From the NCBI RefSeq assembly GCF_004293625.1, contig NZ_CP033040.1:310001-374000 (forward strand): a stretch of DNA of 64,000 bases, in the 5' to 3' direction. A model generated the notes under the pieces. That model ran no database searches and had not been told where the DNA came from. It saw only the letters and a program-made list of their open reading frames with translations. Positions 4,874-54,676 of the stretch are shown here, one piece after another; position 1 is the stretch's first letter; every line of letters begins with the position of its first letter. Position numbers and translations under genes: made by a program. This stretch comes from Thiomicrorhabdus indica. Lineage in GTDB: Bacteria; Pseudomonadota; Gammaproteobacteria; Thiomicrospirales; Thiomicrospiraceae.

Positions 4874-5995
4874 ATGAAAATAGTGGTTGCTCCTGATAGC
4901 TTTAAAGGGTCTTTACCGGCCAGTGCGTTTTGCCAAATTGCCGAGCAGGTGATTTTGCAGCATTGCCCAGAAGCGGAAGTCATTAAGCTGCCCTTGTCTG
5001 ATGGTGGGGAAGGCTTTGTGGAAGCGTTTGTTTGTGCCGGCTTGGCGGAAGAAATCAAGCTTTGGGTGAGTGGACCTTTGGGTAAAAAAACGAAGGCTAG
5101 TTTTGCATGGCAAGCCGATACGAAAACAGCGATGATCGAAATGGCTCAGGCATCAGGTTTACCGAAGTTACGTCATGAAGAGCGAAACCCCTTACAAACT
5201 CATACTTATGGAACAGGACAACTCATTCAAGCGGCGATTGAGAAGGGGGCAAAAAATATCATTTTAGGCTTGGGCGGTTCGGCCACTAATGACGGTGGTG
5301 TGGGTGCCTTGCAAGCTTTAGGCGTTGAGTTTTTAGACTCTGAGAATCAACCCATTGGATTGGGTGGTCAAGCGCTAAAAACGATTGCATCTATTGGTAG
5401 GATTCCAGAAAAACTGTTGGAAATTGATTGGATACTCGCGTGTGATGTAACCAATCCTTTGTTAGGTGATGAGGGTGCAACGGCGATTTTTGGCCCACAA
5501 AAAGGTCTGCAACCTCAGCAGTTTGATTCACTAGAGAATGGTTTAGCGAATTTGGCGGAGAAAATTTATACAGCAACCGGCCGGCAGATTGTTGAGGTTG
5601 CTGGTGCCGGTGCCGCAGGCGGAATGGCTGGTGGTTTTATCGGTATTTTGAATGCACAGGTCGAACCGGGTTTTGAAGTATTGAATCGTTATTTGAAAAT
5701 TGAGCAAGCGATGCAATCAAAAAATAACCGGCCGGTTAGTTATGTGATTACCGGAGAAGGTCGTATGGATGAGCAAACTGCCTTTGGAAAATTGCCAATG
5801 CGAATTGCGCAATTAGCCGAGCAGTATGGCATCCCCGCGATTGGTATATGTGGTAGTTTGGGTGTGTCGCAACTTCCTCCTTTCCAGAGTCTGTTTAGTA
5901 TTGTTAACACGCCGATGCATGAGTTCGATGCAATGCGAGATGCGCCGCAGTTGTTAGAATCCTGTTTGCAAAATCTTGTTCCACTTTTAAAATAG
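4874..5995 (+). CDS. Glycerate kinase, GarK/GlxK type
   Basis: Phosphorylates D-glycerate with ATP, normally to 2-phosphoglycerate for this family. The 373-aa protein begins with the family signature KIVVAPDSFKGSLPA and has SDGGEGF, the glycine-rich LGLGGSATNDGGVGALQALG region and YVITGEGRMDEQTAFGK, all characteristic of type II glycerate kinases. AAAGGT lies nine bases before the ATG. Standing last in the glucosylglycerate cluster, it would return the glycerate freed by the GH13_18 phosphorylase to central metabolism. Odd only in two embedded palindrome-like sites (5577, imperfect; 5727, perfect). Confidence 0.9.
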   Translation: MKIVVAPDSFKGSLPASAFCQIAEQVILQHCPEAEVIKLPLSDGGEGFVEAFVCAGLAEEIKLWVSGPLGKKTKASFAWQADTKTAMIEMAQASGLPKLRHEERNPLQTHTYGTGQLIQAAIEKGAKNIILGLGGSATNDGGVGALQALGVEFLDSENQPIGLGGQALKTIASIGRIPEKLLEIDWILACDVTNPLLGDEGATAIFGPQKGLQPQQFDSLENGLANLAEKIYTATGRQIVEVAGAGAAGGMAGGFIGILNAQVEPGFEVLNRYLKIEQAMQSKNNRPVSYVITGEGRMDEQTAFGKLPMRIAQLAEQYGIPAIGICGSLGVSQLPPFQSLFSIVNTPMHEFDAMRDAPQLLESCLQNLVPLLK

Positions 5996-6020
5996 AGAAA
6001 AAATTCAAGAGGAATAAACA

Positions 6021-6353
6021 GTGAATTCAGTCGTGATTAAAGGCAATCGCCCTTTACGAATTTTTGCATCAATGATGTTAATCTTGTTGGTGATCTCTCA
6101 CTTTATGGGACAGGTAGATTTAACCGAAATTTCGTTTTTGTGGGTGATGATTGCCATGTCAATAAATGCCTTGCAAGCTAGTTTTACGGGTTTTTGTCCG
6201 ATGTTTAAAAACGGAAAAGGCGAGTGTGTTGCGTGTGGCGTGGCTTGTGATCATCCAGAAAGCGTAACCCAAACAGCGCAGCAAGCTGAATCGAGCTGCT
6301 GTTCTGGATCGGATTGTTGCTCAGAAAAAAAGAAAGAATCTACACGCTCTTGA
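6021..6353 (+). CDS. DUF2892 membrane protein with Cys-rich tail
   Basis: A 110-aa protein. Residues about 1-75 contain two hydrophobic segments (IFASMMLILLVISHFMG and FLWVMIAMSINALQ) in the pattern of the YgaP-like DUF2892 membrane domain. The C-terminal third is hydrophilic and rich in Cys: CVACGVACDH, SCCSG and CCSEKKK, which could bind metal or sulfur species; that is inferred. A GTG start is used, with GAGG upstream. Its last 14 bases overlap the convergent dehydrogenase gene. DUF2892 proteins often accompany rhodanese or sulfur metabolism, but no such partner is adjacent here. Confidence 0.65.
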   Translation: MNSVVIKGNRPLRIFASMMLILLVISHFMGQVDLTEISFLWVMIAMSINALQASFTGFCPMFKNGKGECVACGVACDHPESVTQTAQQAESSCCSGSDCCSEKKKESTRS

Positions 6354-7614
6354 ATAGCTTATGGTTCCCGCGTTGATCAATCGCGCCAGCAAGTCGTTCA
6401 ACGCCGTGAACATATGCGGCCGTGCGTAATGAGCATTTATGTTTTTTAGCATGGTCAAAAATACTTTGTGACTCTTTCACCATGATCTTTTTAAGCTGTT
6501 GTTCGACTTCAGCTTCTTCCCAATACATACCTGAACGATTTTGTACCCATTCAAAGTAACTCACAATGACACCGCCGGCATTTGCAAGTACATCGGGGAT
6601 GACATCAATTTCACGAGCTTCAAGGATTTGGTCTGCATCAGGTGAAACTGGACCATTGGCAATTTCTAAAACAGTTTTTGCTTGTATTTGATGCGCATTT
6701 TGTTCAGTAATTTGGTTTTCTAGAGCAGCCAGCACCAATACATCCACATTAAGCTCTAATAAGGCTTCGTTACTTAAAGTTTCATAGTCGAGTTCATTGC
6801 AAACTGAACCATCGCAATAGACCGATGCGAGTCGATTGTCTTCTTGTTTGAGTCGATGGACATCTAAAACATTTAACCCTTTGGGGTCGTAAATCGCACC
6901 CTGTGAATCTGAAATTGCGACGACTCGGTAGCCGCACTGCTGGGCGATTCTTGCAAAATGGAAGCCTGCATTACCAAAGCCTTGCACAGCAATCGTCATT
7001 TGTTCACTGCTTGGTTTGTAGTGTTCTAGGTATTCTTGTAGTGCAAACAGTGCTCCTTGACCAGTGGCAAATTCACGACCTTTAGAACCGTTTAAATGCA
7101 GAGGTTTTCCTGTGATAATTCCGGGTTCTTGGCGACGGGCAATCATGGCGTATTCATCGGCCATCCAGCCCATAATGGTGGCGTTGGTATAGACATCGGG
7201 TGCTGGAATATCTCGTTTTTCTCCTAAGACATCGGCAAACGCACGAATATAGCCGCGAGATAAGCGTTCAATTTCCATTAAGGAAAGTTCTTTTGGGTTG
7301 ACAGTTACACCGCCTTTGGCGCCGCCAAATGGCAAACCAGCGACGGCACATTTGACAGTCATCCAGAAGCTCAGGGACGTGACTTCTTGCATATCTACGT
7401 CTGGGTGAAAACGAATACCGCCTTTCGTCGGTCCACGCGTATCATCATATTGGATTCGATAGCCCGTGAACACGCGCAGAGTTCCATCATCCATTCTGAC
7501 AGGGATGTTGGCGACAATGGTGCGTTTAGGAACCGATAGTCGAATCATGACTTCCTCGTTGATGTCGAGTAAATTAAACACCGGTGCGAGTCGTTGTCTT
7601 GCCAATTCAAACAT
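6340..7614 (-). CDS. Glu/Leu/Phe/Val dehydrogenase, probable NAD(P)-glutamate dehydrogenase
   Basis: Reversible oxidative deamination of glutamate to 2-oxoglutarate and ammonia. The 424-aa protein matches hexameric bacterial GDH in length. It has YRIQYDDTRGPTKGGIRF in the substrate site, CAVAGLPFGGAKGGV with the catalytic lysine, PAPDVYTN, and a Rossmann fold starting VQGFGNAG. On the minus strand AGGAGG is followed by CCT ATG ATG. I take the second ATG (7614, six-base spacing); the first is at 7617. The upstream EAL gene ends in TAG that overlaps this ribosome site, so the two genes are probably co-transcribed and coupled. The coenzyme and main direction cannot be read from sequence. Confidence 0.85.
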   Translation of the reverse strand: MFELARQRLAPVFNLLDINEEVMIRLSVPKRTIVANIPVRMDDGTLRVFTGYRIQYDDTRGPTKGGIRFHPDVDMQEVTSLSFWMTVKCAVAGLPFGGAKGGVTVNPKELSLMEIERLSRGYIRAFADVLGEKRDIPAPDVYTNATIMGWMADEYAMIARRQEPGIITGKPLHLNGSKGREFATGQGALFALQEYLEHYKPSSEQMTIAVQGFGNAGFHFARIAQQCGYRVVAISDSQGAIYDPKGLNVLDVHRLKQEDNRLASVYCDGSVCNELDYETLSNEALLELNVDVLVLAALENQITEQNAHQIQAKTVLEIANGPVSPDADQILEAREIDVIPDVLANAGGVIVSYFEWVQNRSGMYWEEAEVEQQLKKIMVKESQSIFDHAKKHKCSLRTAAYVHGVERLAGAIDQRGNHKLFKSV

Positions 7615-7624
7615 CATAGGCCTC

Positions 7625-9268
7625 CTATGCAGAGCGAGTTTTAAGTTCGTGTGAAAAATTAGAGACGGAGTGTGAGGGGAGTGATTTTGAGTAAAGAAAT
7701 CCTTGTTGACGACGGACTTCAATACTTTCAAGTTTTAGCGCAGTTTCCTCATTTTCGACGCCTTCAACGATGACTTTAATGCCAAGCTGATGACAGAAAT
7801 TTGCTGTATTCTCAACCAGAACCTGATGTTTTTTTGAATATGCAAACGGAAAAATCAACATTTTATCTATTTTAAGATAGTGAATGGGAAGCTCAATCAA
7901 ACGTTCAAGATTACTATGTTCTTTTCCGAAATCGTCCAGTGCAATTAATACCCCCGCATCGATAAGCTGGTGAATATGAGCTTGTAAGATGGGGTCTTTT
8001 AAAAATTTGTCTTGTTGCTCAAGTATTTCGACTAACAGTTGGTGAGGTAATGTTTTATTGAGAACGATTAGATGTTCAATGATTGAGGTTTGCCTAAGAT
8101 GGTTAGGGGAGAAGTTCACAGACACATAATCCAATTCAACGCTGGAAAATTGTGATAACTGTTGACTGAACTTTTTTATTAACTTTTTTTGTAGTTCTTG
8201 ATTAGAAATCATGGCTTCAAAAGGCTCGATAAATGCCCCGACGGGAATTTCGCCAATTTTGGGTAATTTCAAACGAATAAGTGATTCTAGGCTGACAAGC
8301 TTAAGTTGTGATTTCTCTCGGTAAATAATCGGCTGAAATTCATATCTGAGCCAACCTTTTTCAATCCATTGAATGAGCCTTTTGACGTTCACGACTTCAA
8401 TGTGATTCTGGTGGCGAATTATCCAGTTTCGATTGTAGAAGCTATCGGCATAGGCGTGAAAGATAAAAATCAATGCACAGGAGAGGGTAAATAGTGTGAT
8501 CAGAGGTTCAAGTTGTAAATAAAGGTTTTCGCCATGAGTTAGTGGTGATTGACTGAGCAAATATGCACAAATAAAGTAGGTCAAACCTGCCGTTAGTGGG
8601 CCAGCAAGAGAAAGCGCACCGAGGGTAAAAAAGATGAGGAGAATGAGGCTGTCGTAACCATGAGTAAATGCCTGATAAAAAGTGCCTGTAAAGCCTAGAG
8701 CAACAGCGATTGTGACCCATTGCTTGAGTAAGTGCTTGCTAGGATACTTTGCAAAAAACCAAATGATTGCGTAGCCCAATGGAATGAAAACAGCTGCCCC
8801 ACGTAAACTTGCAGATGACCAGAATAGAAAACCTTCAGTCCATGAAATTTGTATATTTTGACTGAGAAACCAGCCACCAATACCGGAAACTCCTAGTAAT
8901 AGTGCAATTGAAAGCACTGCAAATTGCGTCAATCTGCTCGAATCAATTTTGAATTTTAAGTTTTGTTTTCTAGTGTGGGTAATGGCAATGCGAAGAATTT
9001 GTAAGCCGAGCCAGGGTTCCAGTGTTTGCAAAACCGAGAGAATGATGGCTTGCTCGGTAGAAATTGTCGCGAGATTGTAAAGCCAGATTGCAAAAGCTCC
9101 ACAAAGAAAAATTCGGTTTTGAATTTTGTGAGGAGAAATTAATGTCAGCGTTGCGAGTAAAACTCCAGATAGCCAGATACCACTTGGTTCGAGCATTTGC
9201 CAAGGATCAAAGTTCGAGCCATATTGTGCAATCAAAATAAGCGTAAAAATAGAAAAATAGGCAATCAT
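7625..9268 (-). CDS. Multi-pass membrane protein with C-terminal EAL domain (c-di-GMP phosphodiesterase)
   Basis: A 547-aa protein. The first 290 residues are a run of about eight hydrophobic helices in a MASE1-like arrangement; the rest is an EAL domain with no GGDEF domain. Visible EAL landmarks are FQPIIYREKSQLKLVSLESL, where the signature reads ESL rather than EAL, then VSVNFSPNHL, ALDDFGKEHSNLERL, LKIDKML, VIVEGVEN and QGFLYSKSLP. The metal-binding acids appear kept, so c-di-GMP hydrolysis is plausible. In the loop GKEHSNL the usual DDFGxGxS second Gly is His. The stop codon is fused to the ribosome site of the downstream dehydrogenase. What the membrane half senses is not visible. Confidence 0.8.
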   Translation of the reverse strand: MIAYFSIFTLILIAQYGSNFDPWQMLEPSGIWLSGVLLATLTLISPHKIQNRIFLCGAFAIWLYNLATISTEQAIILSVLQTLEPWLGLQILRIAITHTRKQNLKFKIDSSRLTQFAVLSIALLLGVSGIGGWFLSQNIQISWTEGFLFWSSASLRGAAVFIPLGYAIIWFFAKYPSKHLLKQWVTIAVALGFTGTFYQAFTHGYDSLILLIFFTLGALSLAGPLTAGLTYFICAYLLSQSPLTHGENLYLQLEPLITLFTLSCALIFIFHAYADSFYNRNWIIRHQNHIEVVNVKRLIQWIEKGWLRYEFQPIIYREKSQLKLVSLESLIRLKLPKIGEIPVGAFIEPFEAMISNQELQKKLIKKFSQQLSQFSSVELDYVSVNFSPNHLRQTSIIEHLIVLNKTLPHQLLVEILEQQDKFLKDPILQAHIHQLIDAGVLIALDDFGKEHSNLERLIELPIHYLKIDKMLIFPFAYSKKHQVLVENTANFCHQLGIKVIVEGVENEETALKLESIEVRRQQGFLYSKSLPSHSVSNFSHELKTRSA

Positions 9269-40597: not shown

Positions 40598-42730
40598 ATG
40601 AGTCAATCTCAAAGTGGTCGCGCAGCAGCGCAAGCCCGCCGTCAAGCACAGCTTGGCGGTGCAGCTAACTCCCCGACAGCGTCTAAAAGCCCGAGCCAAC
40701 GCAAGGCGGCTCAAGCTTCTGCTCCTGCACCAATTCCAACGCGTGCACAGCAGAAAGCTACGGCTTCAGCACCTGCTCCGGTAGCACCAGCACCAGTATC
40801 GGCTCCTCGTGACCGTGCTCCAGTTGGTCGTCCGGTAGTAATTGCTGAGGGACGTGAAGCAGCGCTTAAGCGTCGCCAAGCTCAATTACGTGGTAATCGT
40901 GGTGCTCAGCACAAAACAAGCGAAAACCCGCATCCTAAAGCAAAGGCTATGCAGAAACGTGCTGAAGCTGCTCAAGCAGCTCCAGTTCAGCAAGAACAGC
41001 CAGCTCAGGTTGCAGTAGCTGCAGCGAAGCCGTTGACTACAAATCGTGGAAATGACCGTCGTAATGCTGTGAAAACAGAGGTTTCGAAGGCTAAAAATCC
41101 AGGACGCGATATGTCTCGTGCTTATCGTAAAGCTCGTACTATGGGTAAAACTGGCGAGACTGCCTACAAAACACGTGGCAGTCAATCTGGTGCAGTTGCT
41201 CGTATGAGTGATCCAGAAGCTTCAAGTCGTGATATTGCGCGTAAAGTAAGAAGCGAACGTTGTTCACGAGGTAAAACTTGTGGTACGGGTAGCTCTGCAT
41301 CACGTACTCGTAAGAGTCGTGAGCGTAATGCTCCTGAAAAGGTGGGACATTCCACAACCCTTAATGGTCAAGGTATTTCAGGAACGCAAGTCGGACAAGG
41401 TAGTATGACAGGTGCTGAATTTGGTGCATGTCAAACAGTTAGCGGTACAGAGTATTTTAGTTCTGAAGAATTTAACACCCATTGTGAAAGTGCACCAACT
41501 GCGGGAAAGCCTAAGGTGACCCGTACGCAAACGACTAAAGGTGAAACCATTAGTGGTACAGCTGTAGGTAATGCACAAGCAGTTACGGGTGACCGTGCAG
41601 GTCAATGTTCAGTAATTACTGGAACAGATTATCTGCCGGCCGATCAGAGTGAACTATTTTGTGGCACCAATGCTCCAGCTCAACCTAAAAAGGTAACGGG
41701 CTTTAGTGTTGATAACAGCCAATTAAACAACAACGGTGCTTCCAATGTAACAGGTGGTGATGGCTACAAGTCTCAGTCGGTTACTATCCGTCCTTCAGCG
41801 CCAGCAGAAATTCCTGAAAAGGTTGTTTCTTCTGTGACGCCAGCGGGTAATGCTACGACTGGTACTCAAGTAGGTCGCATTGAAGATGTTACAGGTGATG
41901 AAAAGGGTTACTGTCATTCAGTAACGGGTACGAACTACCAAGGTTTAGAAGAGACAGAAACTTTCTGTGATTCTACTCCTCCTGCATTACCAGCTAAGAT
42001 TACTGTTTCTAACACGACACGTGGTCAATCGATCACGGGTGATCGTGCAGGTCAAACGACAGGCATGACGGGTGCAGAAGCAGGAACTTGCAAGGCCGTA
42101 ACAGGAACTCCATATATGTCATTTGAACATGTTTCAAGCTGTGGAATGGAAGCGAAAGCGGAAATTCAAAATCGTATGATGGGATCTGTTATGCCGGGAA
42201 AGCACCCACTGACCGGCGTTCAACCGGGGCCTAATGGTCTAACAGGTGCTCAAAAAGGCGCTTGTGAATTAGTATCAGGTACACCGTATCAAGGTGCAGA
42301 TCAAACTGCAGCTTTCTGTGGTGGTCAATCATCAGCGTCAAATCCTGGTGAGTCAGACTTTCCACAGTTAATGAATGCGAATGTAGCTGCTGCGCCGGTC
42401 AGTACACCAAATATGATGATGCAAGCTCCAGCAGTAGGAATGCCACAAGCAATGCCTGCAGCTGCTGAAGTAGAAGTGCCTAAACAAGGTGCTGCACGTA
42501 TCACTGGTGATGGTTGGGATCGTGGAACGAAAGTAACTGGTACCGAAGGGGACTGGGCAACAAGTCGTAACACATCATTGAAAAATAGTCAGGAACCTGC
42601 ACACGTTATGGGTGCACATGGTTACCGACCTAATTCAATGCCAGAAGTTCCAATCAGCAAAATTACAGGTTCTTCAGGGAATGCAGATACTGGTGCGAAA
42701 GTGACTTTATCTGGTGGCGCTCGCGCTTAA
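40598..42730 (+). CDS. csoS2: Carboxysome scaffold protein CsoS2
   Basis: A 710-aa disordered scaffold linking RubisCO to the shell. Residues about 1-225 hold four basic RubisCO-binding N-repeats (SGRAAAQARRQAQLGG, GREAALKRRQAQLRG, GRDMSRAYRKARTMGKTG, SRDIARKVRSERCSRG). About 245-585 hold M-repeats of the type ITGTxVG...VTGDxxGxC...VTGTxY with paired Cys (for example VSGTEYFSSEEFNTHC, ITGTDYLPADQSELFC, VTGTNYQGLEETETFC). About 610-710 form the shell-binding C-domain (RITGDGWDRGTKVTGTEG). At 710 residues it is shorter than the Halothiobacillus form of about 870. GGGAGG precedes the ATG. I see no clear slippery site for the frameshift that gives the short form elsewhere. Confidence 0.95.
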   Translation: MSQSQSGRAAAQARRQAQLGGAANSPTASKSPSQRKAAQASAPAPIPTRAQQKATASAPAPVAPAPVSAPRDRAPVGRPVVIAEGREAALKRRQAQLRGNRGAQHKTSENPHPKAKAMQKRAEAAQAAPVQQEQPAQVAVAAAKPLTTNRGNDRRNAVKTEVSKAKNPGRDMSRAYRKARTMGKTGETAYKTRGSQSGAVARMSDPEASSRDIARKVRSERCSRGKTCGTGSSASRTRKSRERNAPEKVGHSTTLNGQGISGTQVGQGSMTGAEFGACQTVSGTEYFSSEEFNTHCESAPTAGKPKVTRTQTTKGETISGTAVGNAQAVTGDRAGQCSVITGTDYLPADQSELFCGTNAPAQPKKVTGFSVDNSQLNNNGASNVTGGDGYKSQSVTIRPSAPAEIPEKVVSSVTPAGNATTGTQVGRIEDVTGDEKGYCHSVTGTNYQGLEETETFCDSTPPALPAKITVSNTTRGQSITGDRAGQTTGMTGAEAGTCKAVTGTPYMSFEHVSSCGMEAKAEIQNRMMGSVMPGKHPLTGVQPGPNGLTGAQKGACELVSGTPYQGADQTAAFCGGQSSASNPGESDFPQLMNANVAAAPVSTPNMMMQAPAVGMPQAMPAAAEVEVPKQGAARITGDGWDRGTKVTGTEGDWATSRNTSLKNSQEPAHVMGAHGYRPNSMPEVPISKITGSSGNADTGAKVTLSGGARA

Positions 42731-42759: not shown

Positions 42760-44241
42760 ATGAATGCTAGAGGTGGTACTCGCAGACAACGTAAATCGGA
42801 ATTATTGAAGCCAATTCCTTATTCAAGAGATTTGGCTACAAAACGTCCTTCTACAATTGTAACCGCTGAGAAACATCCACTAGTAGATTCAGTGTCAAAT
42901 AAACGTCTTCGCGATTACGAGGATGTTTCAAAAACACGTTTTGATCAAATTTGGTCAGTGTTATTGGAGCTTGAAAGTAATTACGGATGTCGAGATTTTG
43001 TTCATTGGGCAAATCGTACTCTAGAAGCAAAACTCGGATTTAAATTGCCAGTTGAATTCCTAGAACAGGCTTCGATTGGTAGCTTAAATTTGAGTGCGCT
43101 TTACTCTGAATGCGTTTTTCAACAATTCCTAGAATTTTCTAAGGAGTTTTTTGAAAAAGACCCGCTTAAAGGTCAACAAAAAACTAATTTACAAAAGATG
43201 TTTCTGGAAATGGGATATCACGCGATAGGCATTGCACCTTGTGCAGATGGTCGATTAGCACATTTTGTAAGTTATATTTTGCGACTACCTTATAGTATGG
43301 TTCGTCGAAAATCCCATGCTGGCGCCTTATTTGATGTCAGTGAAAGTGTAAGGAACTGGGTCTTTACAGAGCACTTAAGATTTAGAGAATCTAAGCCAAA
43401 TCCGGCAGATGATGATACACGTTACCTTAAAATAGCGTCCTATCATTTCTCAAAATCTGATCCTCATCATCAAGGATGTGCTGCGCACGGAAGCGATGAT
43501 GCTAAAGCGGCTCAAGCAGCTTTGGACAAACTTAACGAATTTAAACAAGCGATTGAAAATCGTTTTGATTGTGGGGCAACAGTAGATGTCATTCTGTTAG
43601 GTGTGAATACAGATGACGACAGTCTAAGAGTTCATGTACCGGATGAATTTGGTCGCGTGGATTTACAAAGTTATGTGGATACTCACAAGCTTTATCATCA
43701 CACAATGAATTTAACAGCTGAGCAAGCACGAACTGAAATTTTAAATGCTCTGACGGTTAGCCGAAAACGCTGCCGATTAGATCAGGCCTTGAGATTAAGA
43801 AAAGTACTTGCTTGGTTGATTGAGCAGAATCTTTCACAAATTGATTATGTTCATCAGTATGAGTCAGGGTGCTATAGCGACCTTGGTCACGCTGAGAGAT
43901 TTATAGGGATTGGAAGTGGGTTCGAAGAAGTTCAGCTTCGTAACCTGACTTATTACAGTTTTCTTGAGACTCTGGAAGAAGGTTTATCTGACGTAAAAGT
44001 TGGGATAAAAATATTCAAGAAGTTAAATGTCTGTAAAATGCGACCAATTCCAATCATTATTGGTTTTGAATATGATGCGAGAGTTCCAGGTTCAAAATTG
44101 AGAGTGATAAAAAAATCAAAACGAATTGAACAATTGGTTCATGAGAAGTTTTCAGAACTTTCTCAATCTGGGATGTTGCACACTATGTGTACTCTCAGAG
44201 ATTACACAGGATTTCATCCGGCTTACCGGTTAGATGATTGA
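42760..44241 (+). CDS. csoS3: Carboxysomal carbonic anhydrase CsoSCA (CsoS3)
   Basis: Turns bicarbonate to CO2 inside the carboxysome. The 493-aa protein carries the zinc site residues Cys161, His229 and Cys240, seen in IGIAPCADGRL and YHFSKSDPHHQGCAAHG, with Asp163 and Arg165 as the catalytic dyad. The middle and C-terminal domains (DVILLGVNTDDDSLRVHVP; GHAERFIGIGSGFEEVQLRN) match the pseudo-symmetric CsoSCA fold. The N-terminus is basic and disordered (RRQRKSELLKPIPYSRDLA), as in the Halothiobacillus protein, where this part binds RubisCO. It starts 29 bases after csoS2. Codon bias is weaker than in cbbL, consistent with lower abundance. Confidence 0.95.
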   Translation: MNARGGTRRQRKSELLKPIPYSRDLATKRPSTIVTAEKHPLVDSVSNKRLRDYEDVSKTRFDQIWSVLLELESNYGCRDFVHWANRTLEAKLGFKLPVEFLEQASIGSLNLSALYSECVFQQFLEFSKEFFEKDPLKGQQKTNLQKMFLEMGYHAIGIAPCADGRLAHFVSYILRLPYSMVRRKSHAGALFDVSESVRNWVFTEHLRFRESKPNPADDDTRYLKIASYHFSKSDPHHQGCAAHGSDDAKAAQAALDKLNEFKQAIENRFDCGATVDVILLGVNTDDDSLRVHVPDEFGRVDLQSYVDTHKLYHHTMNLTAEQARTEILNALTVSRKRCRLDQALRLRKVLAWLIEQNLSQIDYVHQYESGCYSDLGHAERFIGIGSGFEEVQLRNLTYYSFLETLEEGLSDVKVGIKIFKKLNVCKMRPIPIIIGFEYDARVPGSKLRVIKKSKRIEQLVHEKFSELSQSGMLHTMCTLRDYTGFHPAYRLDD

Positions 44242-44802: not shown

Positions 44803-45093
44803 ATGAGTGAATATGGTATTGCTTTAGGCATGATCGAAACACGTGGTCTAGTTCCAGCTATTGAAGCTGCAGATGCGATGACTAAAGCAGCTGAAGTACG
44901 TCTAGTAAGCCGTGAATTTGTTGGTGGCGGTTACGTTACTGTTTTAGTTCGTGGTGAAACTGGTGCGGTTAACGCTGCAGTTCGTGCAGGTGCTGACGCT
45001 TGTGAACGTGTTGGTGACGGCCTTGTTGCTGCACACATCATCGCACGTCCACACAAAGAAGTTGAGCCAGTTCTATCTGCTGATAAAGCTTAA
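44803..45093 (+). CDS. csoS1C: Carboxysome shell hexamer protein CsoS1 (copy 1)
   Basis: A 96-aa BMC-domain protein that tiles the shell facets as hexamers. It has IALGMIETRGLVPAIEAADA, VGGGYVTVLVRGETGAVNAA with the pore-lining Gly-rich turn, and VAAHIIARPHKEVEPVL. Copies 1, 2 and 3 are nearly identical over the BMC core; this copy alone has VLVRG where the others have VMVRG. AAAGGAG precedes the ATG. Which of the three is CsoS1A or 1C by ancestry cannot be fixed by sequence alone; the letter is by position. Confidence 0.9.
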   Translation: MSEYGIALGMIETRGLVPAIEAADAMTKAAEVRLVSREFVGGGYVTVLVRGETGAVNAAVRAGADACERVGDGLVAAHIIARPHKEVEPVLSADKA

Positions 45094-45137
45094 TTTAACA
45101 GTTTATTAATAAAACACTTGTATTCAAGGAGAAAATC

Positions 45138-45425
45138 ATGAGTGATTACGGTATTGCATTAGGTATGATTGAAACTCGCGGTCTTGTACCAGCGATTGAA
45201 GCTGCAGATGCTATGACAAAAGCTGCTGAAGTTCGTCTAGTTTCACGTGAATTTGTTGGTGGCGGTTACGTTACTGTTATGGTTCGTGGTGAAACTGGTG
45301 CAGTTAACGCTGCAGTTCGTGCAGGTGCGGATGCTTGTGAACGCGTTGGTGACGGTCTTGTTGCTGCTCACATCATTGCTCGCCCTCACAAAGAAGTTGA
45401 GCCAGTTCTAGCTAAAGCTGAGTAA
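45138..45425 (+). CDS. csoS1A: Carboxysome shell hexamer protein CsoS1 (copy 2)
   Basis: A 95-aa BMC protein, the shortest of the three, starting MSDYGIALG instead of MSEYGIALG and ending LAKAE. The DNA differs from copy 1 at many third codon positions although the proteins hardly differ, so the duplication is old and kept by selection rather than recent. AAGGAG lies before the ATG. Confidence 0.9.
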   Translation: MSDYGIALGMIETRGLVPAIEAADAMTKAAEVRLVSREFVGGGYVTVMVRGETGAVNAAVRAGADACERVGDGLVAAHIIARPHKEVEPVLAKAE

Positions 45426-45460
45426 TCAGTTAGTTTAAGACTTATTTTAGGAGTCAATCC

Positions 45461-45769
45461 ATGAGTGAATATGGTATTGCACTAGGCATGATCGAGACAC
45501 GTGGTCTTGTTCCAGCAATTGAAGCTGCGGATGCGATGACAAAATCTGCGGAAGTACGCCTAGTAAGCCGCGAATTCGTTGGCGGTGGTTACGTTACGGT
45601 TATGGTACGTGGTGAGACTGGTGCGGTTAATGCAGCAGTTCGCGCTGGTGCTGATGCTTGTGAACGTGTTGGTGACGGCCTTGTTGCTGCTCACATCATT
45701 GCACGTCCTCACAAAGAAGTTGAGCCGGCTCTAGAAACAGGTAATACTGGTTCTGCGAAACGTCTATAA
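45461..45769 (+). CDS. csoS1B: Carboxysome shell hexamer protein CsoS1 with C-terminal tail (copy 3)
   Basis: A 102-aa BMC protein with the same core and a tail ALETGNTGSAKRL beyond the usual end, like the CsoS1B type that carries a short extension. It has TKSAEVRLV where the others have TKAAEVRLV. TAGGAG precedes the ATG. A GC hairpin with a TTCG loop follows directly, so transcript levels may drop after it. Confidence 0.9.
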   Translation: MSEYGIALGMIETRGLVPAIEAADAMTKSAEVRLVSREFVGGGYVTVMVRGETGAVNAAVRAGADACERVGDGLVAAHIIARPHKEVEPALETGNTGSAKRL

Positions 45770-46356: not shown

Positions 46357-46619
46357 GCCCTGCTTGGAAGCAAAAGGATAAACAAGGAACTCTAGAGGCC
46401 AAATTTTTATTTGACTCTTATGATGTTCTACGTGATTTTTTGGATGATGTTGCAGATGTCGCTGAAGAGGTCGGACATCACCCAAACCTTAGCTTTGGAC
46501 GTGAACACGTCTCTGTAATTATTTATGCACAAGGTGAATCGCTTGGCGATACTGATTTTGCATTAGCAAATGGTATTGATGAAGCATTCGAAAAAGTGAA
46601 TGAGGGGACTTCCGCATGA
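46353..46619 (+). CDS. Alpha-carboxysome RubisCO assembly factor, pterin dehydratase-like (acRAF)
   Basis: An 88-aa protein of the pterin-4a-carbinolamine dehydratase fold. The family core VAEEVGHHPNLSFGREHVSV and DTDFALANGIDEAF is plain, but the later active-site His of true dehydratases (usually in a VTLTTH-like strand) is replaced in VIIYAQ. That loss fits acRAF, which acts as a RubisCO chaperone instead of an enzyme. It is coupled on both sides by ATGA overlaps (46353 and 46616), so the ferritin-like, acRAF and small basic genes form one unit. Confidence 0.87.
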   Translation: MSPAWKQKDKQGTLEAKFLFDSYDVLRDFLDDVADVAEEVGHHPNLSFGREHVSVIIYAQGESLGDTDFALANGIDEAFEKVNEGTSA

Positions 46620-46828
46620 GTGAAAATTCATCGGCAAACGGTCAAATTCCAGATGCTTTAAAAGCAGACTCTGCTTCGGCAAAGCCTGCTGTTAAAAAAA
46701 CACCTGCTCGTAAGCCGGCGGCGAAAAAGCCTCAGGTTTCGACAGTTGCTAAAAAAGCAGCTGAGAAAGAGACACACATTGCGGACAAGATTAAGGCGTT
46801 ACCAAGACGTCGAGTCTGGCCAGATTAA
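46616..46828 (+). CDS. Small Lys/Ala/Pro-rich protein, possible orphan McdB-like protein
   Basis: A 70-aa protein, strongly basic and probably disordered. Residues about 15-60 repeat AKPAVKKTPARKPAAKKP-type sequence like histone-H1 tails, and the end is ALPRRRVWPD with one Trp three residues from the terminus. Alpha-carboxysome McdB proteins are small, disordered, lie next to acRAF and end in a conserved Trp needed for carboxysome contact, which fits this gene. No McdA ATPase gene is in the window. It is coupled to acRAF by ATGA and followed by a terminator, so it closes the main carboxysome operon. Identity as McdB is inferred from position and tail only. Confidence 0.55.
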   Translation: MSENSSANGQIPDALKADSASAKPAVKKTPARKPAAKKPQVSTVAKKAAEKETHIADKIKALPRRRVWPD

Positions 46829-46889: not shown

Positions 46890-47219
46890 AATCGACAGAT
46901 TAACTTTATGGGTATATTTTTGTATTTATAAAATTAATCTGTGTATCAAATCAATGGCCATCTATAAATAAATAGAAACTGTCTATGGGTTTGAGTTGTT
47001 TTATCAATTTCACATTTGGTAACAAAGTGAATAGGATAGCGCGCTATTAATTTAAATCTAAAGTGACTGTCTTAAGAGCAGAGCAGCCACTTTGTTGATG
47101 TGTTTAGCCACAAGCTGGATAACAGAAACGTAATTTGCTCTCAGGTTAAGCCTATTCCTGAGTCAACATGACTAAGAAGCAATTCAAATGAATTGCCATT
47201 ACGAAGGTGTAATAAAACT

Positions 47220-48536
47220 ATGGCACAAGAAAATACAAATACATCAAACTCAGAAATGACTGATTCAGGTTCTGCTGCATTCCGCTCAGAATATGCAGTC
47301 AGAGATGTTCAGGCTGGTGTAATTACTGCAACTATGGCAATTCCTCTTTCTATTGGTATTGCTATGATGTCTGATTATCCAATTCAGGTAGGTCTTGCAA
47401 CGGTTGCATTCGCCTCTTTTATTGGTTTCTTATTTGCATGGTTCCGTCCAGGAAACTTTATTGGTGCACCGGGTATAGCAGCAGGTCTTGCTCCTATTCT
47501 AGCAATGGGTGTTGCCACATTTGGTATCGAAAATATGGCGTTCATAATTTTTATGACCGCAACGTTTCAAGCCTTAATATGGAAATTTAATTGGCAAAGA
47601 TATTTGCTCATGGCTGTACCTGGATACCTAGTTGAAGGTCTTTTGGCTGGTATTGGTTTAAAAATTGCACTTAAGTTCCTACCGTTTTTGTGGATGCTTC
47701 CAGTTGGTGTTGCTGCAGGGGAAGAGTTTTGGTCAGACGGACGTGTTCACGTTGTGATCTTATCGGTGATTGGTGCGGCAATGTTTTTAATACTGTTTAA
47801 AAAATTTAAAGACACAAAACCTGCACTACCGTACTTTGCATTGATTGTTTTTGGAATCATTGCTGCAATGTTTATTGATGTCAAAATGCTGAAAGTTGAT
47901 GATGTGGATTTTAATATTGGTTTACCAATTCCAAGCTTTGATTCAGCATGGCTATGGATTTATGCCATCTTCTTCTCATTGATGTTAGCGGTGGTTGATG
48001 TCATTGAGCAGGTGATGTCGAATGCAGCAATTGAAAAAATTGATCCATTGAAGCGTCCGTGTAATTCGAATAATTCACTTCTTTCGATTTGGGTTTCAAA
48101 CATGGGGTCATCTTTCTTTGGGGGTATGACAAACCTTGATGGACTTGCCAAGTCGTCAACGAACCGTTTGGCGGGTGCTTACACTAAGTTATCTGTGTTG
48201 GTAATCGGTCTACTGATCACATTCTTTGTGTTCAATGTTCAGTATCTGGATCATCTGCCATACTTTGCGTTGGCGATTATTATGACATTTGTTGGTATTA
48301 AGATGGTGCTTGGTGTATTACACACCGCAAAACACGGTCCTTATGCAATGTTACTGGCAACTCTTTGTGGATTGTTAGTATTTAAAGTCGGTATTTTTGA
48401 AGGGTTGATTATTACTTTAGTTATTCATGCAGTAATTTATTACGTAATCTTTAAGAATGTCGAGAGTATGCAAACAGGAACCATTGTTCGTCAATATTTC
48501 CAAAAGTTCAAAGAAGACGAAAAAGAAATCAACTGA
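47220..48536 (+). CDS. SulP-family anion transporter lacking a STAS domain, putative bicarbonate uptake
   Basis: A 438-aa inner-membrane protein with 10 or more hydrophobic helices and the SulP start RDVQAGVITATMAIPLSIGIAM, then FIGAPGIAAGLAPILAMGV and SNMGSSFFGGMTNLDGLAKSS. Typical SulP proteins are about 550 residues with a cytosolic STAS domain; this ends at EDEKEIN without it. I start at ATG 47220 (AAGGTG upstream) rather than 47193. Position after the carboxysome operon suggests dissolved inorganic carbon uptake, which is known for SulP proteins in this bacterial group; substrate not proven. A double-palindrome terminator follows. Confidence 0.85.
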   Translation: MAQENTNTSNSEMTDSGSAAFRSEYAVRDVQAGVITATMAIPLSIGIAMMSDYPIQVGLATVAFASFIGFLFAWFRPGNFIGAPGIAAGLAPILAMGVATFGIENMAFIIFMTATFQALIWKFNWQRYLLMAVPGYLVEGLLAGIGLKIALKFLPFLWMLPVGVAAGEEFWSDGRVHVVILSVIGAAMFLILFKKFKDTKPALPYFALIVFGIIAAMFIDVKMLKVDDVDFNIGLPIPSFDSAWLWIYAIFFSLMLAVVDVIEQVMSNAAIEKIDPLKRPCNSNNSLLSIWVSNMGSSFFGGMTNLDGLAKSSTNRLAGAYTKLSVLVIGLLITFFVFNVQYLDHLPYFALAIIMTFVGIKMVLGVLHTAKHGPYAMLLATLCGLLVFKVGIFEGLIITLVIHAVIYYVIFKNVESMQTGTIVRQYFQKFKEDEKEIN

Positions 48537-48635: not shown

Positions 48636-49256
48636 ATGGATTCAATTGTTGTTGCAACAGGAAACCCGCATAAGATAAAAGAGCTTATGCCTTTGCTTTC
48701 GCCTCTGGCAAAGCAGTTTCATTTGCAAACCGATTTTTTCTGCGACGAAGCTGTTGAAGACGGTGAAACCTATTTGGAAAATGCATTAAAAAAAGCTCGA
48801 TTTGCGAGTGCTAAAACAGGATTGCCTGCGATTGCGGATGACTCTGGTTTATCGATTGATTATTTAATGGGTGAACCTGGTATTTATTCTGCGCGTTTTG
48901 CAGATAAAGCTGGTAACGCGAAACCAAGTGAAGCGGAAAACCGTCAAAAAGTGTTACAAGCTTTACAGGGAGTTCCTTACTCGCATCGAAAAGCACACTA
49001 TTACTGTGCAATCGTATTAGTTCGTCACCCTAAAGATCCTGCGCCGATTGTCGGTTATGGTCGATGGGATGGCGAAATCTTAATGGAAGAACGCACGACT
49101 TACGGAATTGGTTATGATTCCCTGTTTTGGGATAGAGATCGGTTCCGAGTCGCTGCGGACATTCCACTTGAAGTCAAAAATAAAATTAGTGCTCGCGCAC
49201 AAGCTGCCAACGCTGTTGTTGAGCAGTGGTTAGCGGAAAAGGCAAGAAAGGCATGA
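48636..49256 (+). CDS. rdgB: XTP/dITP diphosphatase (RdgB/HAM1)
   Basis: Hydrolyses non-canonical purine triphosphates (ITP, XTP, dITP) to monophosphates. The 206-aa protein begins [13 protein letters not shown] and has [29 protein letters not shown] with the catalytic Asp, and the C-terminal GYDSLFW. All family landmarks are there and the length is normal. Its last bases hold the ATG of csoS1D (ATGA), so the two are translated together. A HAM1-type gene beside csoS1D is also known from marine cyanobacteria. No strong ribosome site is visible before the ATG. Confidence 0.93.
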
Positions 49257-49891
49257 TTGAATTACGTACCTGGGTATTTATTGATTCCCTACAACCGCAG
49301 TTAGCATCCTATATGGGGACTGCGTCTTTAGGGTTTCTTCCTGTACCTGGTGATTCCTGTTTATGGGTCGAAGTTGCCCCAGGTATGGCTGTACATCGTC
49401 TATCGGATATTGCCCTTAAAGCATCGAATGTTCACTTGGGCCAGCAGATTGTAGAGCGTTCATATGGTTCTATTTTTGTTCATCATCGTGTTCAAAGTGA
49501 TGTGCTTGAATCAGGTGATCATATGCTACGTTATATGAATACAGAACATTCAACGCGTCAGCCATGTAAATTGATGTGGCATGAAATCATTCGTTCTATT
49601 ACTCCTGATCATGCAACTTTGATTAACCGTGATAACCGTCGAGGCTCAATGATGCTTCCTGGCCAATCCATGTTGATTATGGAAACTGAACCGGCCGGTT
49701 ATATTATTTTGGCGGCAAACGAAGCGGAAAAAGCTGCCAACATTACTTTGATTGAAGCGCGTGCGGTAGGTGCTTATGGTCGTTTGATTATGGCAGGTAA
49801 GGAAGCGGATGTTGAAGAAGCCGCTCGTGCAGCGACTGCAGCGCTTACACGGTTGAATGGTAATGGCGGTGGTTGCCAAGACATAATGTAA
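49253..49891 (+). CDS. csoS1D: Carboxysome shell protein CsoS1D, tandem BMC
   Basis: A 212-aa shell protein with two fused BMC domains that forms trimers with a gated central pore. Highly recognisable blocks are [61 protein letters not shown], then in the second half [40 protein letters not shown] and [19 protein letters not shown]. The conserved Glu and Arg of the pore lie in these repeats. The true start is the ATG at 49253 overlapping rdgB, not the earlier 49226. It lies away from the main shell operon, with the SulP gene between. An imperfect palindrome copy (49907) follows. Confidence 0.92.
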
Positions 49892-50039: not shown

Positions 50040-50993
50040 ATGAGTCGACTACCGGATGGAAATTCTAATAGCCATTTTCTTCTGCGCCATGCCTCTTTAA
50101 GACAGATTCAAATTTTTGAAGCAGTTTCACGGCATCTGAGTTTTACCAGAGCTGCACAAGAATTGTTTCTGACACAGCCAACGGTTTCAGCTCAGGTCAA
50201 AAGTTTTGCCGAAGCGATAGATTTACCCCTATATGAGCAAGTTGGGCGTAATATTTATTTGACTGAGGTCGGTGAGAAGGTCGCTGCTAGCTGTCGTGAA
50301 ATTATCGACCGTCTATCCAACCTTGAAATTATGTTGGATGATTACAAAGGTCTTAAACGGGGCCGCTTGAGAGTTGCGGTTGTGACGACTGCGAAATATT
50401 TCACGCCAAAAGCCTTAGGTGAGTTTTCGAAGCGACACGAAGATATAGACTTAAACTTGAAGATTACAAATCGTGAAAACCTGTTTAAGCGAATCGAGCA
50501 AAACTTGGATGACCTTTATATTATTGGTCAGGTTCCGCGAAATAGTTCGGATTTGGAAGTTGTCCCGTTTCTTCCTAATCCATTGGTGATTATTGCCAAT
50601 CATACCCATGAGCTAGCGGGTCAAAAAGTGAGCCTTCAGCGTTTGGCAAAAGAACCTTTTATCATGCGTGAAGAAGGTTCGGGGATTCGTTCCGCGGTTG
50701 AATCGGTATTTTCTGAGCAGGGCTTAAGTATCAATGAGCGTTTGACAATGGAAACCAATGAAGCGATTAAACATTGTGTGATTGGTGATTTGGGCGTTGC
50801 ATGTGTCTCGCAGTTGGCGCTGTCAAAGGAAGAACGACTAAACGGTCCGATTATAGAATTAGATGTAGAAGGTTTTCCGGTGCAAAAGCAATGGAATATC
50901 GTCTATCCAAAAGGTAAAGAGTTATCAGTCTTAGCCAATGAATTTTTAGAGTTCTTGAAAGGCTGTGGTGAAAGCTATGTTCATGGTTATTAA
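50040..50993 (+). CDS. cbbR: LysR-type regulator, CbbR/CmpR family
   Basis: A 317-aa transcription factor. Residues about 18-77 are the winged helix (LRQIQIFEAVSRHLSFTRAAQELFLTQPTVSAQVKSF), followed by the linker helix and an effector domain (LRVAVVTTAKYFTPKALGEF; IIGQVPRNSSDLEVVPFLPNPLVIIA) that matches CbbR and CmpR. CbbR proteins sense Calvin-cycle metabolites and switch on cbb and cso operons. It stands 11 kb downstream of cbbL, so it is not the usual divergent neighbour. AAGGAG precedes the ATG. Likely binds upstream of cbbL and perhaps upstream of the SulP gene and its own gene. Confidence 0.9.
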   Translation: MSRLPDGNSNSHFLLRHASLRQIQIFEAVSRHLSFTRAAQELFLTQPTVSAQVKSFAEAIDLPLYEQVGRNIYLTEVGEKVAASCREIIDRLSNLEIMLDDYKGLKRGRLRVAVVTTAKYFTPKALGEFSKRHEDIDLNLKITNRENLFKRIEQNLDDLYIIGQVPRNSSDLEVVPFLPNPLVIIANHTHELAGQKVSLQRLAKEPFIMREEGSGIRSAVESVFSEQGLSINERLTMETNEAIKHCVIGDLGVACVSQLALSKEERLNGPIIELDVEGFPVQKQWNIVYPKGKELSVLANEFLEFLKGCGESYVHGY

Positions 50994-51053: not shown

Positions 51054-51608
51054 ATGAAAAACGGTCGTACAATCAGTGGAACAGTTGGAATTGAATGGGA
51101 TGTTAACCCACGAGTAAGTGTTGGCAGCAGTCTAGGAAATCGTGGTTTAAAGGAAACACCGGTTACGGTTCGTAACCATGGAGCGCCAATCGACACTCCT
51201 ACTGCAAACGAATCTTGTGCCTGTGCACCTTCTTCTGAGCGTTTAGCGCAAGAACTTTTTGAACGTTGGAACATGGCGTTGCAAACGGGTGACCAAAATG
51301 CCGTTGCCCAATTGTATTGGGAAGATGCTGTGCTGTTACCAACGGTTTCAAACGTTCCTCGTGTTAACCACGAAGAAATCGCTGATTACTTTCACCATTT
51401 CCTACAATCAAAACCTTATGGAAAGGTGGTTTCTCGTAACTTGAAACAAGGCTGCAACAAATTGACTGATGCCGGTGTTTATGAATTTAAGGTTGTAAAA
51501 GATGGCAAGCCTCAAGTGGTTCCAGCTCGTTACACCTTTGTATATGAATTCCGTAATGGCGAATGGAAAATCTCTCATCACCACTCGTCAATGATGCCTG
51601 AAAAATAA
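51054..51608 (+). CDS. Iota-class (COG4337/SgcJ-type) carbonic anhydrase with N-terminal extension
   Basis: A 184-aa protein. Residues about 62-184 form a SnoaL/CaMKII-association fold: AQELFERWNMALQTGDQNAV, AVLLPTVSNVPR, then ARYTFVYEFRNGEWKISHHH and the terminal HHSSMMPEK. The HHSSxMPE end and the xxTFVY strand are the hallmarks of iota-class carbonic anhydrases, some of which work without metal. Unlike many bacterial members there is no signal peptide. Residues 1-45 are instead a polar extension beginning with RTISGTVGIEW; TISGT-VG closely resembles the CsoS2 repeat start TISGTAVG. This suggests, but does not prove, shell targeting. GAGAAG precedes the ATG at 51054; it follows cbbR by 60 bases and probably shares its transcript. 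Terminator follows. Confidence 0.78.
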   Translation: MKNGRTISGTVGIEWDVNPRVSVGSSLGNRGLKETPVTVRNHGAPIDTPTANESCACAPSSERLAQELFERWNMALQTGDQNAVAQLYWEDAVLLPTVSNVPRVNHEEIADYFHHFLQSKPYGKVVSRNLKQGCNKLTDAGVYEFKVVKDGKPQVVPARYTFVYEFRNGEWKISHHHSSMMPEK

Positions 51609-51629
51609 TTCAAAATTATCATCATAATG

Positions 51630-51667
51630 AAAACGGCTTCTAAGTTTGTCTTAAGAAGCCGTTTTTG
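51630..51667. terminator. Bidirectional terminator between the iota-type gene and the GT4 gene
   Basis: AAAACGGCTTCT and AGAAGCCGTTTT flank a 12-base loop, with A-run and T-run at the ends, serving both convergent genes. Confidence 0.9.
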
Positions 51668-51690
51668 TATTCAGGATGTATTGGATAAGA

Positions 51691-53819: not shown

Positions 53820-54056
53820 ATGTGTATTTTTATTGCCGCTTTAATGTTGATTGTTTTGTATGCGTTTATGGGGCAGGTGGATAGTTTGCAATTGGTTGAA
53901 GTTGCCGGAAATGATTCTTTGGTGATTGCCCAAGGCTGGGAGATGGTTTCCCCATTATGGGCATTGCTGGCATTTGTATTTTTGGCAGGCGCTTTAACGG
54001 TTTTATTGGTAATGAAACTAATACCGGCCGGTCAAGAATCGAATTCACAGGAGTAA
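53820..54056 (+). CDS. Small two-helix membrane protein, unrecognised
   Basis: A 78-aa protein with hydrophobic segments at about residues 2-17 (CIFIAALMLIVLYAFMG) and 45-66 (PLWALLAFVFLAGALTVLLV). AGGAG is eight bases before the ATG, and it follows the phosphoesterase by 27 bases, so it is probably the last gene of that unit. Its end overlaps the convergent bioD by 25 bases, over a palindrome copy (54023). No family recognised. Confidence 0.6.
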   Translation: MCIFIAALMLIVLYAFMGQVDSLQLVEVAGNDSLVIAQGWEMVSPLWALLAFVFLAGALTVLLVMKLIPAGQESNSQE

Positions 54057-54676
54057 ATGGGGGTCTCAGTCCATTTCTCTAAGTCTTTAGCAAAACCAAA
54101 GCTGTCTTGGTTGACTTGATTGACTACAATCGCGTGTAATTTTAATCCTGCACTTTCAATTGCTTCGATACTAAGTAAAGCATGATTCAAGCAGCCGAGC
54201 TTGTCAGCAACGATTAAAATCACCGGCAGGTTTAAAGCTGTTGCCAAATCTCGATTTTGACCGTCTGTACAAAGCGGTGATAAGAATCCACCGGCCCCTT
54301 CAACCAAAGCAAAGTTTTGATTAGGTGTTTGGCAGGCAGCAAACAAGTCTTTTATCGTAACCACCACATTCGCCATTTCCAAAGCACTTTGTGGTGAGAG
54401 TGCCGGTTCAAATTGGTAGGGGCAAATAACTTCTAAGCTCTCTTGTGATTGTGCACCTTTTTGCAATTGCAAAGCGTCCTCACTTAATAAGCTTCCATCG
54501 GTTTGCACGATGCAACCAGAGGCAATTGGTTTACGAGGAGAAATTTTTAAGCCATGTGCAGTGAATTGTTGTGCAATTTTGGCTGCGACAAAGGTTTTTC
54601 CCACATCCGTATCGGTTCCGGTTACAAAAAAACCGGTATGAGGACCGGCTTTTAATTCGCTAATTGGATGGTGCAT
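54032..54676 (-). CDS. bioD: Dethiobiotin synthase
   Basis: ATP-dependent ring closure of 7,8-diaminopelargonate to dethiobiotin, the step before biotin. The 214-aa protein has the P-loop FFVTGTDTDVGKTFVAAKIA, a Lys in KISPRKPIASGC and the catalytic VEGAGGFLSPL. Length is normal. The start overlaps the purC stop (TAATG), a coupling with no evident pathway logic. Other bio genes are not in the window. Confidence 0.92.
   Translation of the reverse strand: MHHPISELKAGPHTGFFVTGTDTDVGKTFVAAKIAQQFTAHGLKISPRKPIASGCIVQTDGSLLSEDALQLQKGAQSQESLEVICPYQFEPALSPQSALEMANVVVTIKDLFAACQTPNQNFALVEGAGGFLSPLCTDGQNRDLATALNLPVILIVADKLGCLNHALLSIEAIESAGLKLHAIVVNQVNQDSFGFAKDLEKWTETPIYSCEFDS

Follow-up and report, generated by a model that had tools for sequence, protein, structure and literature searches.

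We found that the alpha-carboxysome locus of the sulfur oxidizer Thiomicrorhabdus indica ends in a gene for a predicted iota-class carbonic anhydrase (iota-CA) that carries, ahead of its NTF2-like domain, a conserved N-terminal extension with a (V/I)(T/S)G triplet of the kind known from the scaffold protein CsoS2. The family and architecture of this protein are conserved among its relatives, it co-occurs with carboxysome genes, and it is present in sampled genomes whose loci lack CsoSCA. The co-occurrence with CsoS2 and other carboxysome genes makes it very likely that the iota-CA is a carboxysome cargo, which in T. indica would place it in the same compartment as the usual enzyme.

Genomic context

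In the window (the whole stretch of 64,000 nucleotides analyzed here), the gene occupies positions 51054..51608 of the forward strand and codes for 184 aa, as identified by translation, Pfam/NCBIfam, a PDB sequence search, and fold comparison. The ORF starts with an ATG at 51054, with a Shine-Dalgarno-like GAGAAAGAGAAG ahead of it, and ends at 51608; its protein gave a single match in the genome. The gene is the last of a co-directional run made up of cbbL, cbbS, csoS2, csoSCA, csoS4A, csoS4B, three csoS1 copies, a ferritin-like gene, acRAF (pterin-4a-like), a short ORF, sulP, rdgB/Ham1, csoS1D, and cbbR (cbbL, cbbS, csoS4, and csoS1 were named by eye from the sequence). The csoS2 scaffold gene (40598..42730, +; NF050161, E 1.2e-301) encodes a product with 17 [IVM][ST]G triplets, and csoSCA, coding for the usual beta-type carboxysomal carbonic anhydrase, is intact (42760..44241, +; TIGR02701 E 1.5e-179, PF20686 5.1e-96). 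The three csoS1 hexamer genes (44803..45769, +) each keep the motif AAHII, the histidine of which likely corresponds to His79 of H. neapolitanus CsoS1A. Further downstream are a SulP-family transporter (47193..48536, +; Pfam), an rdgB/Ham1-like gene (48636..49256, +; NCBIfam), a csoS1D-like shell protein with a BMC domain (49253..49891 from an in-frame ATG, +; Pfam), for which the top NCBIfam model was CcmP, under that model's cut-off, and a cbbR-like LysR regulator (50040..50993, +; Pfam/NCBIfam). The position directly after cbbR and near csoS1D that had been noted in a sequence-only reading of this DNA is thus correct, with a gap of 60 bp between cbbR and the iota-CA gene.

After the gene there is a terminator-like hairpin, its arms 12 bp long and followed by a run of T (51630..51665, +; -22.5 kcal/mol in a fold of 51606-51680). 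A generic promoter/terminator scan did not list this hairpin, and the sites that it found were no more numerous than in shuffled sequences. Between acRAF and sulP lies a lysine/alanine-rich ORF of 70 aa (46616-46828), for which Pfam and NCBIfam gave no informative family match.

Domain, fold, and active site

The NTF2-like iota-CA domain corresponds to residues 59-184 (51228..51605, +), as delimited by pLDDT and structure comparison, and contains T97, Y112, H177, and S179. In the AlphaFold model, built from an alignment of 12 sequences, pLDDT block means were 85-96 across residues 61-180. The domain matched CaMKII_AD in Pfam (1.3e-14) and TIGR02246 (SgcJ/EcaC) in NCBIfam (7.8e-14), and the top match of the PDB sequence search was 3h51 (E 4.9e-31), with ARYTFVYE and HHSSxMPE aligned. 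Structure comparison with 3h51 gave a Z of 21.0 over 126 residues at 48% identity, against 16.1, 15.9, and 15.9 at 18-25% identity for the iota-CA structures 7c5v, 7c5x, and 7c5y, so that the COG4337 subtype suggested in the sequence-only reading has to be given up. Fold alone is not decisive, since a ketosteroid-isomerase-like protein (Z 17.4) and NTF2 (Z 16.6) outranked 7c5v in this VIA comparison. Foldseek had no iota-CA structures among the 50 matches listed, although the VIA comparison did list them. At the sequence level, a profile of 23 orthologues reached 7c5x with a whole-chain E of 0.00048 (no single stretch passed alone), in an alignment spanning YTFxY and HHSSV.

HHHSS is found at residues 175-179 of the window protein, and T97, Y112, H177, and S179 are invariant across the 23 orthologues. 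3H51 is reported to belong to the COG4875 subgroup and to have almost the same cavity as all2909, a tested iota-CA in which T106, Y124, H197, and S199 are required (PMC8132391); the equivalence of the pocket residues of the window protein to those of all2909 was drawn via 3h51 only. An SgcJ/EcaC protein with the (H)HHSS signature is also reported as a demonstrated carbonic anhydrase (PMC8425729). Given the likeness to 3h51 and the invariance of the four residues, we assign the window protein to the iota-class carbonic anhydrases of the COG4875 kind and predict that it is catalytically active. The class had been proposed from sequence hallmarks, and the Pfam/NCBIfam matches, 3h51, the HHSS signature, and the structure comparison bear it out, with the active-site Thr, Tyr, and Ser (T97, Y112, and S179) all in place. 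The all2909/Bn86287 subgroup has been reported as metal-free and the COG4875 type as metal-dependent (PMC8132391).

Two cysteines, C57 (51222-51224) and C134 (51453-51455), are likewise invariant in the 23 orthologues. By eye, both seem to be present in the FKBP-fused relatives described below and in L115-L117 and L119, and both are absent from Verrucomicrobia and from 3h51. A disulfide between them is possible.

The N-terminal extension

The extension covers residues 1-58 (51054..51227, +), rather than the first 45 residues as initially read. It is predicted to be disordered, with a pLDDT below 50 at residues 1-41 and 43-54 of the window protein (alignment of 12 sequences), and its outline comes from this and from alignments of 31 distinct homologues. 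RTISGTVG occupies residues 5-12, and apart from the ISG within it (residues 7-9; 51072..51080, +) the window copy has no canonical (V/I)(T/S)G triplet. The similar TISGTAVG to which it had been likened is found in CsoS2 at residues 317-324 (window 41546-41569), 9.5 kb upstream instead of the 10 kb given. The lack of a signal peptide also agrees with that reading: the extension is polar, whereas extension-less relatives in the CsoS2-less genomes G348, G242, and G089 (L116, L117, and L119) start with a hydrophobic leader, as judged by eye.

We read 25 extension-bearing orthologues from 23 of the 60 genomes of the family sample, which became 24 after merging identical ones; a further seven from class genomes under other family labels brought the number to 31 distinct extensions (this set does not include the second iota-CA copy of either G042 or G054). 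[IV][ST]G is present in all 31 and occurs twice in 26 of them, compared with a mean of 0.14 per sequence after shuffling, and none was found in the domains of the 25 sequences from the family. Over the columns of residues 7-10, I is found 30 times and V once, S 20 times and T 11 times, G in all 31, and T 29 times and S twice. The common layout, [IV][ST]G[TS] ... S ... [VI]T ... ID[TV] ... C.P, holds for the 25 family orthologues and the seven from the class, with L044 as the single exception, at the [VI]T place; S22, D47, C57, and P59 are conserved in 31/31. Where there are two triplets, they are separated by 16 residues (5 extensions) or 27-29 residues (21 extensions). Copies with a single triplet are the window protein, its three nearest relatives (L016, L017, and L043), and L044.

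The extension is retained down to 54% overall identity. In the domain tree, extension-bearing sequences clustered together (2 changes, against a shuffled mean of 16.4); a single change was obtained in 55% of bootstrap trees, and the tree is compatible with either one or two origins of the extension.

Resemblance to CsoS2

The four-residue form of the motif, [IV][ST]G[TSD], occurs 17 times in the 18,121 residues of the 50 window ORFs kept, 13 of them in CsoS2. The remaining four are spread over the other 49 ORFs (17,411 residues), and one is in the iota-CA gene. Only two of the 50 ORFs have it within the first 40 residues, the iota-CA and an ORF at 54035-54676 (-), in which it is presumably part of a nucleotide-binding loop. 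At this frequency, one match in a given 60-residue tail would be roughly a 1 to 2% event; the retention of the motif in 31/31 distinct extensions is a stronger fact than its rarity in the window.

In CsoS2, mutations are reported to show that the (V/I)(T/S)G triplets of the middle region, which lie some 8 residues apart and bind multivalently, matter for shell binding (PMC11365436), and an [IV]TG is described as contacting His79 of CsoS1A (PMC10484944). The C-terminal domain has been used as an encapsulation peptide (PMC11365436, PMC10938918). Aligned with hhalign, the extension scored 16.76 against the CsoS2 C-terminal region, compared with 10.36 +/- 2.2 for column shuffles, 5 of 600 being as high; when the ISGT block was kept in the shuffles, 40 of 400 were as high. 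Scores against the Rubisco-binding N-terminal region of CsoS2 (9.88) and the reversed C-terminal region (9.86) were obtained without shuffles. Smaller series gave, with 24 sequences and 60 shuffles, 6, 6, and 2 shuffles as high for whole CsoS2, the C-terminal region, and the C-terminal peptide, and, with 31 sequences and 100 shuffles, 2, 1, and 7 as high for the M-repeats, the C-terminal region, and the C-terminal peptide. L078 was excluded from the CsoS2 set, as the longest reading frame there did not encode CsoS2.

When the extension HMM was searched against the 618 window ORFs, CsoS2 was the top non-self match, with an E of only 0.81; with a shorter extension profile it was not among the best 8 matches listed, and the HMM of the CsoS2 C-terminal peptide did not have the iota-CA among its best 10 matches in the window. 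The stretch of CsoS2 that best matched the extension profile is the C-terminal repeat ITGDGWDRGTKVTGTEGDWATSRNTSLKN (42500..42586, +), and the idea that the tail is a copy of the C-terminal peptide was rejected.

The docking like that of CsoS2 that had been proposed for the extension is thus supported only in part: the triplet class is present in all 31 extensions, but likeness beyond the triplet is not significant and the spacing differs. In the comparison with the M-repeats that had been suggested as a check, 2 of 100 shuffles were as high. CsoS2-like repetition of the triplet every ~8 residues, with further repeat consensus, was not found in the extension. On these alignments, we regard the resemblance as a shared short linear motif, for which common ancestry is not established.

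Co-occurrence with carboxysome genes

The family sample consisted of 60 genomes (G000-G059), 46 with CsoS2 and 14 without. Extension-bearing iota-CAs were found in 23, all of which have CsoS2 (Fisher p 3.5e-4), and there was no iota-CA match of any kind in the 14 CsoS2-less family genomes. The other 23 of the 46 do without an extension-bearing iota-CA, from which the protein would be dispensable where CsoSCA exists. The gene was near the cso locus in 14 of the 23 extension-bearing genomes; the other nine have it outside that locus or on a separate contig whose fetched part gave no cso gene, and the persistence of the extension in these nine argues that it is not a by-product of linkage.

Across the class, 36 of 369 genomes gave an iota-CA match, and ten of these, under six family labels, were extension-bearing. 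Nine of the ten have CsoS2, against 63 of the remaining 359 (Fisher p 2.3e-6, a value to be read with related genomes not being independent), and in the tenth, G125, a carboxysome locus that includes bfr, acRAF, sulP, rdgB, csoS1D, and cbbR is cut off by the end of the contig. In the other 26 the match began at model position 41 or beyond, and these genomes were counted as extension-less, ten after reading and 16 by match range alone; one of them, G188, has CsoS2 and an iota-CA match of E 6.9e-4. A further 14 loci were kept out of the co-occurrence counts.

Cyanobacterial homologues were considered as carboxysome-linked and rejected: their genomes do have CsoSCA (7/7; L006-L011 and L015), but the N-terminal part is different, and the fetched DNA around the iota-CA gave no match to any cso protein of the window.

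Several arrangements of the gene were seen along the way. It directly adjoins sulP in L093, L094, L095, L096, and L104; the DNA fetched for L093, L096, and L104 gave no cso gene. In one genome (L002 and L003, the same contigs as in G013), the row csoS1D-cbbR-iota-CA is found on each of two contigs, and there are two CsoS2 genes; G024 also has two CsoS2 genes and one iota-CA. In the locus of L087 (G035, 5346-7803) and in that of L088 (G042, 4962-7415), rdgB and csoS1D have an iota-CA gene on either side, and G054 likewise has two copies; these copies are 51-57% identical to the window protein.

Loss of CsoSCA

Among 52 relatives with CsoS2, 10 lack CsoSCA and 42 have it. An iota-CA was found in all ten of the former vs 15 of the latter (p 2e-4), eight of the ten being extension-bearing and two fused to an FKBP domain. 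Eight of these ten genomes belong to a single genus (g5), so the number of independent events is small. A ninth member of g5, G058 (83% complete), gave no iota-CA match and does have CsoSCA, along with a short match to CsoS2.

In the class sample, the genomes with CsoS2 and no CsoSCA are G035, G184, and G111, the first two with an extension-bearing gene; in G111, the CsoS2 match breaks off at the edge of the contig, on the flank expected to carry csoSCA. G184, from another family (L126/L137), has csoS4A 130 bp after csoS2, no CsoSCA match in the genome by tblastn, and the extension-bearing gene ~80 kb from the locus. The domain of its iota-CA groups with rows of the window's family at modest support in the domain tree, which suggests transfer of the gene. 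A BMC match near csoS1D in G184 holds one TAA.

The two FKBP-fused proteins, in G019 (L085, 6223-6924, -; FKBP_C E 4.7e-8) and G032 (L086, 13471-14154, +; FKBP_C E 2.1e-5), are encoded inside the carboxysome locus in genomes with no CsoSCA match, have an FKBP_C-like N-terminal domain, and lack the extension; they are apparently a separate answer to the loss of CsoSCA. Homologues next to carboxysome genes without the extension had been named beforehand as evidence against targeting by it, and these two are in part such a case. Only they are called FKBP-fused because Pfam found FKBP_C there and not in L010, the single cyanobacterial protein scanned by Pfam; the fkbp label on cyanobacterial tree rows is too generous. 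In L085 the csoS1-acRAF blocks are present twice.

Proposed function and alternatives

We consider it reasonably probable that the iota-CA is held as cargo beside CsoSCA by triplet docking. The NTF2-like domain would interconvert HCO3- and CO2 through its Thr/Tyr/His/Ser pocket, and the disordered extension would act as a natural encapsulation peptide by docking one or more (V/I)(T/S)G triplets, as CsoS2 does, at the histidine groove on the inner face of the CsoS1 hexamer, so that the enzyme is kept at the shell while assembly proceeds. The iota-CA would then supply Rubisco with CO2 in parallel with CsoSCA and take over where CsoSCA has been lost. Such a tail is unnecessary in principle, since minishells are reported to take up CsoSCA even when CsoS2 is absent, by contacts described as nonspecific (PMC12646314).

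An unlikely, though serious, alternative is a carboxysomal iota-CA whose extension has a partner other than the shell (Rubisco, CsoSCA, or CsoS2) or a part in oligomerization, with the ISG a mere coincidence. S22, D47, C57, and P59 are as conserved as the triplet (31/31), and the likeness to CsoS2 is at the motif level only with an unlike triplet spacing; however, the triplet retains the I/V-S/T-G alternation known from CsoS2, and the profile score is 16.76 for the CsoS2 C-terminal region against the values below 10 for its Rubisco-binding N-terminal region and the reversed control.

Much less probable is an unencapsulated housekeeping enzyme for CO2/HCO3- in the cytoplasm, encoded near genes for CO2 concentration and sometimes beside sulP. 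The nine of 23 family genomes with the gene away from the cso locus and its adjacency to sulP in G014, G031, and G059 would fit such an enzyme, but in the family sample iota-CAs are confined to carboxysome-bearing genomes, all ten relatives with CsoS2 and no CsoSCA have one, and the Thiomicrospira enzyme is reported as carboxysomal. Moreover, a human carbonic anhydrase in the cytoplasm is reported to have abolished growth of a cyanobacterium at low CO2 (PMC10880623). Least probable, we think, is that the protein is some other SgcJ/EcaC-type member and not a carbonic anhydrase: NTF2-like folds have many functions, and ketosteroid-isomerase-like and NTF2 structures rank above 7c5v, but the HHSS signature and the pocket residues, the 48% identity to 3h51 with its reported cavity (PMC8132391), and the reported activity of an (H)HHSS protein of this type (PMC8425729) all speak for the enzyme. 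Our preferred reading is the docked iota-CA.

Earlier reports and implications

The iota-CA of Thiomicrospira has reportedly been found in carboxysome enrichments, and a mutant is said to require CO2. A second class of carbonic anhydrase in alpha-carboxysomes, in place of CsoSCA, is known already from this sister genus: papers citing Wieschollek et al. (2024, Appl Environ Microbiol 90:e0107524) describe the Thiomicrospira iota-CA as carboxysomal and replacing CsoSCA, and one of them states its presence in purified carboxysomes. PMC12646314 words it more cautiously ("might be"), and the work is cited also in PMC13159521 and PMC12918739. Loci without csoSCA are described in Thiomicrospira and two Thiomicrorhabdus species (PMC9164163). 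The second, unrelated carbonic anhydrase that the sequence-only reading had proposed for the carboxysome is backed by the association (23/23 and 10/10), although the idea is already in print for Thiomicrospira. Among titles and the beginnings of abstracts, where the Greek letter iota is not searchable, we found no CsoS2-type triplet tail on an iota-CA. As far as these searches reach, the new elements are the conserved CsoS2-style tail on an iota-CA and its coexistence with CsoSCA, and the link of the tail to carboxysomes looks new.

The route by which a second enzyme enters the alpha-carboxysome is unsettled, the recruitment of CsoSCA being described as nonspecific shell contact (PMC12646314). 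A short and portable natural cargo tail would amount to a targeting rule open to direct test and would provide a native tag with which to load enzymes into engineered carboxysomes, and a tagged iota-CA would explain how lineages could drop CsoSCA. It also leads to the prediction of an iota-CA in the carboxysomes of Thiomicrorhabdus and of several gammaproteobacterial groups beyond Thiomicrospira. More tentatively, the triplet may be a general address code, taken up from CsoS2 or evolved anew as a stand-alone tag on an unrelated enzyme, in a compartment served by two evolutionarily independent carbonic anhydrases. If so, the tagged iota-CA would have allowed the loss of csoSCA at least twice (in genus g5 and in G184), and the FKBP-fused iota-CAs of G019 and G032 would be a third solution.

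Comparison with known systems

The window protein shares its fold with the COG4337-type enzymes all2909/Bn86287 (7c5v, 7c5x, and 7c5y), as well as the YTFxY and HHSS motifs in the case of 7c5x, and differs from them in its low identity (18-25%). It is closer to X. campestris 3H51, at 48% identity, and to the COG4875-type iota-CA of B. territorii, with which it has the domain and the HHSS signature in common; bacterial iota-CAs of this type are reported to carry a pre-sequence or signal peptide (PMC8425729, PMC8132391), whereas here there is a polar disordered tail. With CsoSCA the likeness is one of proposed role and place, since that enzyme is beta-type, has another fold, and shows no (V/I)(T/S)G triplet at the N terminus of the window copy (by eye).

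What the extension has in common with the C-terminal region and M-repeats of CsoS2 is the presence of (V/I)(T/S)G triplets in a disordered stretch. In CsoS2 there are 17 in all, ~8 residues apart, whereas the extensions nearly always have one or two, 16 or 27-29 residues apart, and attached to an enzyme; homology between the two is not demonstrable. The closest known system is the carboxysomal iota-CA of Thiomicrospira, which is of the same enzyme class. Eight genomes of genus g5, which we infer to be Thiomicrospira because CsoSCA is missing there, have orthologues with the same extension close to csoS2 and no CsoSCA, the fetched ones adjoining cbbR, rdgB, and csoS1D. In contrast, the genome of T. 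indica keeps an intact CsoSCA, so that two carbonic anhydrases would coexist in its carboxysomes.
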